From Bolinopsis microptera (taxonomy: Eukaryota; Ctenophora; Tentaculata; Lobata; Bolinopsidae): a stretch of DNA of 64,000 nt. The notes under the pieces were generated by a model, which was given only the letters and a program-made list of their open reading frames with translations, did not search any database and was not told the origin of the DNA. The translations under genes and the position numbers were made by a program. Every line of letters starts with the position of its first letter. The first letter of the stretch is position 1. The stretch spans positions 11,516,303-11,580,302 of the forward strand of contig NC_087075.1 in assembly GCF_026151205.1 (NCBI RefSeq), written 5' to 3'. Positions 16,935 through 31,900 of the stretch are shown here, piece by piece.

Positions 16935-19900
16935 GTGAGTTGCTTCTAAATCCCTGTAGATTTATTTTAAATCTATGTTATTTAAACACTCTATATCACT
17001 CTACAGACTCTTTCCATACATTTTTTAGGGGATGGGGCCTTCAATAGTACTCTTATCCCCCCTTTTAATTTAAATTTTCAATTATAATGGTTTCAAAGAG
17101 ATGTGAGATGTTCAAAGAGAAAATACTTGATGTGGTAAATCTGGATTTTGATAAAAGAAACTAATGTACATATTTTCTCGTTATTTAATTTGATTGTAAG
17201 AAAAAATGTGCGGCTGGTGCCAGGTAAGAAATCGTATAGAATCTGAGCTAGGAGCTTTCTTGTACAAAAATGTAAATTCTCAATTATATACAGTACGAAT
17301 CTTACTCTGTTGTATCCGTGGACTGTTGGGATTGCTATCGAGTCCTATATGATTAAAACAGTATCATTTTCCATTGTAAGAATGCAACCCCACCGATCAG
17401 AAACAGTCATAAACTTGACTTGAAACAGGCATATATATCAGCATAATTAGCATATTTAGCATATCAGCATATTAACGTCATGACGTCACAGCCTGGTCCA
17501 CTCTAAACTCTCTCAACATACTCGACTCCTCACACTTTGGTCTCCGTTACCCCATGATTACCAACCACCTCTTTCACCGGAGTTTTATCAGCAGAATTTG
17601 GCTCATCCATCCTCTGAAAGTGGGGTACTGACAGAGACAGGTTGATAATTAGGAGGAGTATACCGAGCGAGAGGATGAGGAGGAGCAGGGTCATGACCGC
17701 GGAGGTGGGAGCCAGAGCTCCGCACACCATGTTAAATGTACTGAGGTAGATGTTGTAGAGAGGACCACACCGCCCCACTATCTCCGTAAGCTGGTGTGTG
17801 GCTATGTCTCTGTAACATGTCACGTGACTTTCTGCCACGGGGAGCACTTCCATCATTTTTGTTCGGTACGTTGACTCGCTTTTGTTGAACATTTCCTCGT
17901 TTAAGGAGATTGCAATTTCAAATTCTTGATGCAAGTTTCGCAACATGCCCATTAACAACACACTGTTCGTTCTGTACATTGTGGACTTTGCAACAAGTTC
18001 ATCATTATCAGATACCCAGTCCCTTTGCAGATATCCCATGTTGTTGACACATCCCTGCAGTTGCGATCTTTGAGCCCCCCAGTACAGGCTGTTTTTTGCC
18101 GTAGTTGCCTTCTTCTTAAACTGTTCGTACTTTTCAGGAGACAGTGTGACAAGACCTCTGTCTGTTTCTGTTAGATCGTCCAAGTATGGTAGTATGGTGT
18201 GCAACTCTCCTTCTTCCTCCTTTAGGTCCACATCTGATGTAGATATTCCCGTCATTATCTTTCCCTTTTCTTCTGTCGTGTAAAAGGTTTTGTACCAATG
18301 CTCGTGGGGGTTAAGACTGCTTTTTTCTGCAACTCTAGAGTAGTCAAGGAAATCGTCCAGATAAAAGTTGCTCGCTGGATCCCAGATACTCGTCAGATTC
18401 AAAACCTTGTAAAGCGCTTCATTTTCCCTGCAACCTGTAATCAAGTCAGAAAACCTTACATCTGAGGACATGTCACCAATAGCTCTAGAAATAATACTGG
18501 TACTGGTGGCGGTGCCATTGTCCCATAACCAGAAGGGGTTCATACCATCAGTACCGTCAGTACCGTTAGCTAACCGACAGGATTCCGTCAGCACACTTGA
18601 AATGGTAAAGTTGGGTATAGTGAGCGCCAGCACAACAATAGCTTGCACGTACAGAGAGAGAGTGGCTACCTTCATGATGGTCGCTATGTTATTAGAACTC
18701 CCAGATCTCTCAGTGGGCTTGTCCGAGTTCTCATCGGCGGTACAAAGACCACACGCGAAGAGAGCCACACAGAGCACAGCAGGTTAGAAAGGAGATAAGG
18801 AACACGGCTACAGTGAGCCAGTGAGTGTAGCTACTCTGCTGGGAGGAGGAGGAGGTGGAGGAGTAAGCGGGGTCACGTGATGGGACCCCTCCTGCCAGGC
18901 TCAGCTTCCAGGATTCTTTTATGGTTTCTATTTTGGGGAGGTTTTCAGTGATCCATGCCAGGAGTTTGATGTTGTGTTCCATGTGTTCAATTCTGTAAGG
19001 CTCGTTGTGGTTCATCAAGTCCTCGATTGTGGTGTTCCATATTTTCCAGTTTTTGAACGTAAATCCAGGTATGTCAAATGCCACAATTTCGTTGAATTCC
19101 GATATGTAGGGCCAGTTTGCCACATCTGCACCGGCTACCATCCTCAACGGTTCAACATTAGTTGCATTGAACACATCGTCACAGAATGTTTTCCTGTAAT
19201 AGTTATTGTTTTCCTCTGTTTGTATATTTGCGTCATCACAATAGTTCGCATGAACTTAACAAACTTATTAAACAGTACTCATTTAGCTTTCATTTTAGAC
19301 TTCACGTCTCCCGAAATAAAACTGCGAACAAAGTGAAACAAGGAACTAAGTAAAATGTAAAACCAAATTTTCGTCACGCATTGGACTTTATCAAGTCTAA
19401 AATGAAGCTAAATTCGTCTCAAACTCACGCTCAGCCTTAAGATATATTTAAACAGTACTCACAAAAAGTAAAATCAAGCACTTTACTAACTAGTACAGTT
19501 TATATCCGTCAAAATAACCGAAGGTACAAAGGAACGCGTTATGTAACGTTTTTTTAATAACGTTAAGACGGTACGTGACGCATCACGTAACGCGTCACGT
19601 CACGTCTAGCAGCTAGCTATAAAAAATAAGCTAATATATAATATATATATATAATAAGCTAAAATACTCGATCGCGTAACACATCGCGTGATGCATCTCG
19701 TGCCGTCTAGCTAGGGTCTAATAAATAGAACGCTGTACTAACCTGGTTTTACAATACCAGACCACACCATTGTAACAGTACGTCAGCTCACCCTGCTTGT
19801 CCTCTAAGATACTATTCATCTCCTGCAGTAAGATCATACTTTTATTTAGGGTATCCTGGACCTGCCACTGTAGTTTCTGCATCCGGACCAGCGTGTTGTT

Positions 19901-28900: not shown

Positions 28901-31900
28901 ATTATTTTAAAAAAATATTGTATTTGATAAAATATGATTAATGTTGGTAAAGGAATATTTTTCACATAGTGCGATGATATTTTGTGATGATGTGATGTCA
29001 TAATTTTGACTTTACTTTACCTTTAACCAGCTTGCTCCGTCAGTATTTCCACTTACAACCGCTGCACTAGTCCAGAAAAGATCAATGGCGTATTCTGCAG
29101 GGTCGTTGCCACTGGGCTCTGTTCCTGATGGTTTTACATTTCCCGGCATTATCTCACCATCACTTCTTGTTCGCGTAGCTGAAAATATAATGTCATCATG
29201 GATCTTTTGAGGGGGATTGACATTGGACAAGGTGTCATCGCCAGTCACTCGGTTTCCGTCATGATAGACAAAAACATCTGCTTCTGCACGTCCAGCTTTT
29301 CTCTCTTAGACCTGATTGTTTCTACAAGATTAGTTACTATTTTAACCCCCGAAAGGGTTAGAGTGCACTTACATACTTTCTAAATATATCAAAATCTTAT
29401 ATTTACCTTCTTCAACTCCGATGACAGCTAGCTCGAAGACAGTGAATTCGGAACCGTCCTCCTTTTGCAACAAAAATATGTTTCCAAATGCGCAATCAGC
29501 AACATCGTGTGGAGCAATAGTTGGGATAGTTTTTGAACTAGGTCCCTCAATGCTGACTGTCAGGGAAAAAGAAGCACAAGCTGAATCACTATCGTCACCA
29601 TCATCACTATCTGTACATACAGAGCATTCGTTTTTATTTTCAGAGCAGGTCCATGTTTGCCGAGGGGTTGTATCAGTGTGGTACCAGATAAGTTGTTCCA
29701 CACAAGAAAGCTGGTCTAGGGATACCTATAATGTATTTGATTATTTTTTAAAAATCTTTTAATTGATAAATGATTAATGTTGTTATTGTTGGTGGGGAAA
29801 TATTTATAATATATATAGTTCCATTTTTTTACATAGTGCGATGATATTTTTTGATGATGTAATGTCACAATTTGTACTTTACCTTTAACCAGCTTGCACC
29901 GTCAGTATTTTCACTTACAACCGCTGCACTAGTCCAGAAAAGATCAATGGCGTATTCTGCAGGGTCGTTGCCACTGGGCTCTGTTCCTGATAGTTCCACA
30001 TTTCCTGGCATTATCTCACCATCACTTCTGCTTCGGGTAGCTGAAAATTTGATGTGATCATGAATCTTGTGAGGGGGATGGAGGAGGCGTCTTCACCATT
30101 TCAATTTATTCTCAAAATTGCAGTTTCCGTTATGATAAACAAAAAACATCCGGTTCCTGCACCTCAAGTTTTTTTCTTATCGACCTGACTATATCAACTA
30201 GAAAAGCTACGATTTTTGACTCGCTTGCATATCTAAATTTATCAAAATTATAGTTCTACCTTTTTGTCCAATGATGGCCATCTCGATGACAGTGAATTCT
30301 AAACCGTCCTCTTTTTGCAACAAAAATGTGTTTCCAAATACGCAATCAGCAACATCGTGTGGAGCAATAGTTGGGATATTGTTTGGTCTAGGTCCCTCAA
30401 TGCTGACTGTCAGGGAAAAAGAAGCACAAGTTGAATCACCATCATCACTATCTGTACATACAGAACATTCGTTTTTATTTTCAGAGCAGGTCCATGTTTG
30501 CCGAGGGGTTGTATCAGTGTGGTACCAGATAAGTTGTTCCACACAAGACAGCTGGTCTAGCGATACCTATAATGTATTTGATTATTTTTATAGAAATATT
30601 TTATTTGATAAAATATTATTAATGTTGGTTAAGGAATATTTTTCACATAGTGCGATGATATTTTGTGATGATGTGATGTCATAATTTTTACTTTACTTTA
30701 CCTTTAACCAGCTTGCACCGTCAGTATTTTCACTTACAACCGCTGCACTAGTCCAGAAAAGATCAATGGCGTATTCTGCAGGGTCGTTGCCACTGGGCTC
30801 TGTTCCTGATAGTTCCACATTTCCTGGCATTATTTCACCATCACTTCTTGTTCGGGTAGCTGAAAATATAATGTCATCATGGATCTTTTGAGGGGGATGG
30901 ACATAAAACAAGGTGTCAGCGCTAGTCACTCGGTTTCCGTCATGATAAACAAAAACATCTGCTTCCTGCACGTCCAATTTTTTCCTCATAGACCTGCCTA
31001 TATCAATTAGAATAGCTACGATTTTTGATTAATAAAGAGTTTGATATTCGCTTGCATATCTAAATTTATCAAAATCATAGTTCTACCTTCTTGTCCAATG
31101 ATGGCCATCTCGAAGACAGTGAATTCAGAACCGTCTTGATGTTGTAACAAAAATGTGTTTCCAAATACGCAATCAGCAACATCGTGTGGAGCAATAGTTG
31201 GGATATTTTCTGGTCTAGGTCCCTCAATGCTGACTGTCAGGGAAAAAGAAGCACAAGCTGATTCACTATCGTCACCATCATCACTATCTGTACATACAGA
31301 GCATTCGTTTTCACTTTCAGAGCAGGTCCATGTTTGCCGAGGGGTTGTATCAGTGTGGTACCAGATAATTTGTTCCACACAAGAAAGCTGGTCTAGGGAT
31401 ACCTACAATGTATTTGATTATTTTTTTAATACATTGTTCTTGATAAATGATTAATGTTGATGAGGGAATATTTATTATACATAGTGCGATTTTTTCACAT
31501 AGTGCGATTATATTTTGTAATGATGTGATGTCATAATGTCTACTTTACTTTACCTTTAACCAGCTTGCACCGTCAGTATTTTCACTTATCACCGCCTCAG
31601 TTTGCCAGTCTAGATCAATAGCATCTGTTGCGGGGTCGTCTTCATTCTCTGTCCCGGATACTTTAGCACTATCTGGTATTAGCTCATTGTCATTTCTGTC
31701 CCGGAAATTGCCAGCGCAGTTCACTGTTCTGAAATAATGGGGAAATCATAAAGCTTTTACAAGCCGTTTGTACTGCAAGTATCCTACTCCCTAGTAACAC
31801 CCTAGTAACACCCGTGTAACACTCAAAGTAACACCCTAGTAACTACTCACCCCAGAATCAACAGGATCGTCACTTCAAACAGCATGATCTAATCCTACCG

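Follow-up and report, generated by a model that had tools for sequence, protein, structure and literature searches.

The locus described here lies on chromosome C4 of the ctenophore Bolinopsis microptera, within a 64,000-nucleotide window (C4:11516303-11580302) whose own numbering is used throughout. On its minus strand, a signal-peptide exon is followed by 11 two-exon lectin-like modules, an unnamed module, a sushi-like exon and the exons of a prominin, all joined in frame. This order had been proposed from the letters of the DNA (hereafter the sequence-only reading), and it is borne out by our gene model, in which 28 exons were placed by splice sites on the minus strand in a single reading frame. 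The frame is open for 2,403 codons, from the signal peptide to the third transmembrane span (TM3) of the prominin, and ends at a TGA at 18733-18731. No other stop codon occurs in the 28 exons, which agrees with the claim that no stop separates the modules. The features are as follows; exons without further remark rest on splice sites and frame.

31851-31885, minus strand: exon 1, signal peptide, phase-2 donor; same start in the NCBI model
31554-31728, minus strand: module 1 exon A
31087-31402, minus strand: module 1 exon B
30702-30859, minus strand: module 2 exon A
30260-30566, minus strand: module 2 exon B; 44 residues spanning the A/B join are missing from the NCBI model
29883-30040, minus strand: module 3 exon A
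29407-29725, minus strand: module 3 exon B
29021-29178, minus strand: module 4 exon A
28568-28886, minus strand: module 4 exon B
28182-28339, minus strand: module 5 exon A
27713-28031, minus strand: module 5 exon B
27326-27483, minus strand: module 6 exon A
26857-27175, minus strand: module 6 exon B
26475-26632, minus strand: module 7 exon A
26002-26320, minus strand: module 7 exon B
25607-25764, minus strand: module 8 exon A
25156-25471, minus strand: module 8 exon B
24792-24949, minus strand: module 9 exon A
24335-24641, minus strand: module 9 exon B
23982-24104, minus strand: module 10 first exon, intron displaced, phase 1
23449-23757, minus strand: module 10 second exon
23075-23232, minus strand: module 11 exon A
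22632-22917, minus strand: module 11 exon B
21958-22404, minus strand: unnamed module, phase 1-1 exon
21324-21845, minus strand: dispersed repeat, likely a transposable element, in the unnamed-to-sushi intron (genome matches)
20935-21138, minus strand: sushi-like exon, phase 1-1 (splice sites, weak Pfam match)
20316-20831, minus strand: prominin exon, N-terminal ectodomain, TM1 and TM2 (frame, hydropathy, alignment to the prominin P0002)
19743-20133, minus strand: prominin exon, first large extracellular loop (frame, hydropathy, P0002 alignment)
18731-19193, minus strand: prominin exon, TM3 and the part of the first large loop before it, closed by the in-frame TGA (frame, hydropathy, P0002)
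18731-18783, minus strand: stretch open in both frames that contains the +1 frame break; end of the NCBI model
17530-18783, minus strand: second half of the prominin in the other frame, end of TM3, TM4, second large loop, TM5 and cytoplasmic tail, to a TGA at 17532-17530

All 13 module-to-module introns are in phase 1, including those that lead from module 11 to the unnamed module, the sushi-like exon and the prominin. The sequence-only reading had given phase 1 to every boundary; this holds for these 13, but the signal-peptide intron is in phase 2. The introns within modules are in phase 0 in 10 of the 11 modules, while in module 10 the phase-0 intron is gone and a displaced phase-1 intron (23758-23981) stands instead.

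The automatic NCBI model of the locus, LOC134814313 (2,359 amino acids (aa), 'uncharacterized'), joins the same exons. Its residues are identical to those of the splice-site model, except that it lacks the 44 residues of module 2 and everything beyond the frame break in TM3, where it ends. Against the Pfam Prominin profile it scores 11.5 bits and does not reach the cut-off of 34.3, which may be why it is unnamed. It does exceed the cut-offs for CFAP61_dimer (48.2), Ycf54 (43.4) and PIH1 (34.6), in none of them by a single passing stretch, and we take these scores as sums over repeats.

A prominin interrupted by a frame break

The downstream exons match Pfam Prominin (PF05478) at 52 bits against a cut-off of 34.3, over profile positions 96-767 of 799, when the region is read across the break with an X; the last prominin exon alone scores 43.9 bits. 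A +1 frame break falls within 18783-18731, and the prominin resumes in the next frame (18783-17530) for 417 open codons. Hydropathy analysis of the prominin part yielded windows at positions 96-114, 118-136, 152-170, 432-450, 473-491 and 799-817. With the first two read as one span, the region would form five spans with the N terminus outside, across the break, and with large extracellular loops of about 261 and 307 residues. These two loops (extracellular regions EC2 and EC3) hold 10 of the 12 N-glycosylation sequons, and EC2 and EC3 are also where N-glycosylation sites of prominins are placed in the available excerpt of PMC10967083. Mammalian prominins carry a cysteine-rich stretch at the boundary between TM1 and the first intracellular region (IC1), according to excerpts of PMC5049760 and PMC10967083, whereas the Bolinopsis prominin shows no such cluster, with no cysteine between positions 116 and 158 of the prominin part.

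The region has a relative in P0002, an 829-aa prominin from ENA that scores 77.6 bits against Pfam Prominin. It aligns with the first frame at 33% identity (its residues 7-424) and with the second at 40% (416-827), uninterrupted across the break. In a MAFFT alignment with a human prominin fragment, the CG[LV]C motif known from the second intracellular loop lines up in the second frame and an RMD motif lines up after TM5; BLASTP with the same fragment was not significant (E 0.11 and 0.38).

The locus thus resembles known prominins (CD133/prominin-1, Drosophila prominin and prominin-like proteins of PF05478) in its Pfam match, its predicted five spans and its sequons in the large loops. It differs at the N terminus. 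Known prominins have a signal peptide followed by a short first extracellular region (EC1), whereas here about 1,900 modular residues precede the usual N-terminal domain, and the only good signal peptide lies in exon 1, before the array and 25 exons upstream of the first prominin exon.

Genome searches covered the assembly of 264,652,675 bp in 232 contigs. No second prominin was detected with Pfam Prominin, the window protein or P0002, in searches that read exon by exon and could miss a very divergent copy; the P0002 search returned four stretches, all at this locus. A candidate on C3 scored 24.8 bits against Pfam, below the cut-off, and proved to be a low-complexity repeat of GLEDLNQ type. 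A match on C7 at E 0.96 was disregarded.

The sequence-only reading had described a full five-span prominin and a protein of about 2,800 residues. Pfam and hydropathy agree with this when the region is read across the break, but the five-span region does not lie in a single open frame. The assembled sequence encodes a product that stops after TM3, and both the predicted length and the five spans would hold only if the break stems from faulty assembly or is overcome in some other way. The fusion could accordingly be real and its product a truncated three-span protein, or the locus could be turning into a pseudogene. Such a truncation would fit the break with its TGA at 18733-18731 and the end of the NCBI model there, and no convincing intron bypasses the break. 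Among 98 GT/GC-AG intron candidates scored, the best (total -1.5) would delete TM3 and the best that keeps TM3 reached -8.0. The splice matrix is dominated by array sites, and the weakest sites of the gene itself score -2.0 (donor) and -1.5 (acceptor); a poor intron is therefore unlikely, not strictly impossible. Set against truncation are the long open frame of the second half, which is more similar to P0002 than the first half is, the freedom of the 28 exons from other stops, and the continuity of P0002 across the site. We consider a truncated or decaying product unlikely, and infer that an isolated error in the sequence, or a lesion, accounts for the break in TM3.

A tandem array of F5/8 type C-like modules

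The lectin-like module has at least 112 matches in the genome, 22 inside the window and 90 outside. In the 10 pairs listed (of 36), modules 1-9 are 86.5-98.5% similar in their coding parts and 74-98.5% in their introns, and are therefore recent tandem copies. Pooled over all 36 pairs, which are not independent, pN/pS is 0.52, which suggests weak constraint on these modules.

The family was aligned from 23 members, comprising 3 of the 11 window modules and 20 of the 90 outside matches. PF00754 (F5_F8_type_C) matched 9 of the 23 at E <= 1 (best 5.4e-6), the first-listed window module not among them; scanned singly, modules 1, 2 and 11 matched no Pfam family. Searched against chains of the Protein Data Bank (PDB), the family profile found Sm-hPAF best (E 0.0093 and 0.021), followed by a fucolectin-related protein (0.11) and a lectin (0.2). 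Six cysteines are present in 18 of the 23 members. F-type lectins bind fucose through the motif HX24RXDX4R/K. This motif occurs in none of the 23 members and is absent from the whole window array. The modules are probably related, as the profile matches suggest, to F5/8 type C and F-type lectin domains, from which they differ in their six cysteines, in the lack of the fucose motif and in the lack of Pfam matches to modules scanned singly. The label 'lectin' used in the sequence-only reading stands as the name of a fold family, but not as a statement of fucose binding.

When the family was searched against a protein database, 114 of 951 candidates matched; those named were one from Bolinopsis and four from Mnemiopsis. 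Structure prediction of the lectin second exons (10 of 11, module 5 omitted) gave a pLDDT of 41.3 and was unusable.

The unnamed module and the sushi-like exon

The unnamed module has 93 genome matches, 1 in the window and 92 elsewhere; this count and that of the lectin-like matches used different E cut-offs (0.001 and 0.01). Its family was aligned from 15 of 20 sequences, near duplicates being omitted. The best Pfam match, DUF1780 (E 0.0084, in 2 of the 15 members), is unconvincing, no PDB chain matched the family at E <= 10, and structure prediction of the module alone gave a pLDDT of 40.6, likewise unusable.

The same module occurs in another setting on C7, where four unnamed-module exons are spaced 10-12 kb apart (C7:5251000-5300999). 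The three of the four units that were translated consist of a kringle-like exon, the unnamed exon and an F5/8-like exon with a hydrophobic C terminus. These genes share the unnamed module and its phase-1 donor with the window gene, but in these three units the module is linked to kringle-like and F5/8-like exons and not to prominin.

The sushi-like exon scores 14.6 bits against PF00084, below the cut-off of 20.7, and is a weak match by Pfam alone. Outside the window it has weak relatives only. The best lies on C11 (E 0.0046) and the next are two on C1, at 5330813 and 5342341 (E 0.0103 and 32% identity each). Each of the C1 relatives is closely preceded, on the same strand, by an unnamed-module exon (5330115 and 5341643). 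In the first, the one that was read through, the exon starts ICEAPLP, against ICQAPLP in the window gene, and phase 1 can be read at the donor of the unnamed exon and at both splice sites of the sushi exon. The pair is apparently one duplicated case, because the scores are identical and the two lie 11.5 kb apart. The order of unnamed module and then sushi exon is thus found on C1 as well, and therefore ties the sushi exon to the array.

One gene or two

The joint between array and prominin is compact. The sushi-to-prominin intron, at 103 bp, is the shortest of the 27 in the model. The unnamed-to-sushi intron measures 819 bp, of which 522 bp (21845-21324) are a dispersed repeat with at least 50 matches elsewhere (40 of 919 candidates scored); without the repeat, about 297 bp remain. 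The frame of the first prominin exon is open for 23 codons upstream without an in-frame ATG, and its first internal methionine (MNVWEALIG) is not followed by a signal peptide. In a scan of 22631-20832 at a stricter setting, no second signal-peptide exon ending in a phase-1 donor was found (control 0.41 per 1.8 kb); this setting would also miss the array's own short signal exon. A looser scan, which recovers that exon, gave four candidates, where controls averaged 0.8 per 1.8 kb, two of them within the unnamed coding exon and two from an ATG at 21172.

Several points weigh against one gene with a single pentaspan product. The fusion is known here from genomic sequence and an automatic gene model. 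The ATG at 21172, in frame and just before the sushi exon, opens a weakly hydrophobic start. Seven AATAAA/ATTAAA motifs lie in 22404-20831, against 4.0 expected from the strand average; two fall within the unnamed exon, and one short repeat accounts for the other five. Ctenophores also trans-splice leaders onto their mRNAs, and therefore the acceptors at 21138 or 20831 could start separate messages. The C1 sushi exons support the module order through a match of only E 0.0103 and 32% identity, in what appears to be one duplicated case. P0002 has no signal peptide at its start, and this locus is the only fused case known. Six hydropathy windows, not five, were found, and a sixth span, as predicted for fly prominin in the excerpt of PMC10967083, may exist; and the frame break closes the open frame after TM3, where the NCBI model ends too.

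Some of these points would be explained by two genes in tandem, a secreted lectin array and a prominin or sushi-prominin, the latter expressed by leader trans-splicing or from a promoter in the 819-bp intron. In the ctenophore Hormiphora, genes are often nested and leaders often trans-spliced, with the leader on 56% of Iso-Seq reads, a figure called a lower bound (PMC8527503, in excerpt), and both the ATG at 21172 and AATAAA motifs at 21270-21253 could serve such an arrangement. Against it, no good signal peptide results if a message starts at the sushi or the prominin acceptor, and the looser candidates for a separate signal exon are confined to the unnamed exon and the ATG at 21172. The 3' end of the published Hormiphora leader is absent from the window at up to 3 mismatches, with the reservation that the Bolinopsis leader may differ. 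The shorter leader core AATTTGAG, which is conserved at the end of ctenophore leaders, is enriched in the window, with 14 occurrences against 5.1 expected (0 of 100 shuffles reach 14), all of them outside 17530-31885. The long intron is mostly dispersed repeat, the unnamed-sushi order is found again on C1, and the NCBI model joins the exons. Two tandem genes therefore seem to us improbable.

Leader RNA genes were also sought. A genome search with the Hormiphora leader motif gave 43 loose matches (31 forward, 12 reverse), against 7 and 13 with controls. Twelve of the loose matches form a tandem array on C8 without an Rfam match. That array (C8:7889600-7890320) consists of units of ~513 bp, 12 copies of which carry a leader-like motif.

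An assembly artefact that set a prominin locus beside a lectin-array locus is highly improbable: near-alike modules do invite collapse or expansion errors in the number of array units, but the splice phases match at the unnamed, sushi and prominin joins, and the exons of these three parts are each their own only near-identical match in the genome.

A single gene built by phase-1 exon shuffling is thus well supported by the frame to TM3, the intron phases, the 103-bp gap, the order on C1 and the joined NCBI model. The fusion claimed in the sequence-only reading gains from this but is not proven. Its further claim that no start lies between the modules fares similarly: no convincing independent start or signal exon was found, but the weak in-frame ATG at 21172 is there.

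Other searches yielded little on relatives of the fusion. A first protein search with the prominin part found none among 7,993 candidates, yet P0002 lay within its length range and was missed; that negative is therefore unreliable. A later protein search (2 matches among 7,064 candidates) gave no further fused relatives, which means little because the first had missed P0002. No literature report of a prominin fused to other domains was found, judged by titles and the openings of abstracts.

Elsewhere in the window, two opposite tRNA-Val genes with anticodon TAC (16244-16318, minus strand; 16511-16585, plus strand) sit in the arms of an 83-bp inverted repeat that is 99% complementary. A 1.4-kb (TCC)n-like array with strong strand skew lies at 8445-9884, and two long open frames (878-3484 and 3489-6587; 869 and 1,033 aa) resemble non-LTR retrotransposon proteins by eye.

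Discussion

We think it likely that this is one Bolinopsis microptera gene, in which a secreted array was shuffled in front of the only prominin detected in the genome, yielding a pentaspan protein. Phase-1 exon shuffling would have set the signal peptide, the 11 F5/8 type C-like modules, the unnamed module and the sushi-like module before the prominin. The product, presumably a single mature protein once the supposed error in TM3 is set aside, would be a pentaspan prominin with an N-terminal ectodomain extended by about 1,900 residues. By analogy with other prominins, which reside in membrane protrusions and bind cholesterol and from which a role at protrusions is carried over to this gene, its prominin part may sort to and stabilize curved protrusions such as cilia and microvilli. 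The array would then project outward and could bind glycans or proteins at high avidity, linking or spacing membranes; its best reading is as a multivalent linker or spacer on cilia or microvilli.

On balance, we favour the broader view that the sole ctenophore prominin detected here gained a lectin-fold ectodomain of ~1,900 residues. A membrane-shaping protein would thereby carry its own extracellular linker, joining in one molecule the roles of fly prominin and the secreted Eyes shut.

Ctenophores have been argued to be the sister group of all other animals (PMC10232365, in excerpt), and have been reported to lack homologues of many microvillar genes (PMC4942974, whose available excerpt does not state whether prominin was included). 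The Bolinopsis genome does encode a prominin, which bears on that reported lack, but its NCBI model is truncated and labelled uncharacterized. If true, the natural fusion of an adhesive-type ectodomain to prominin would offer a sequence-level hint of the job that prominin does at the cell surface.

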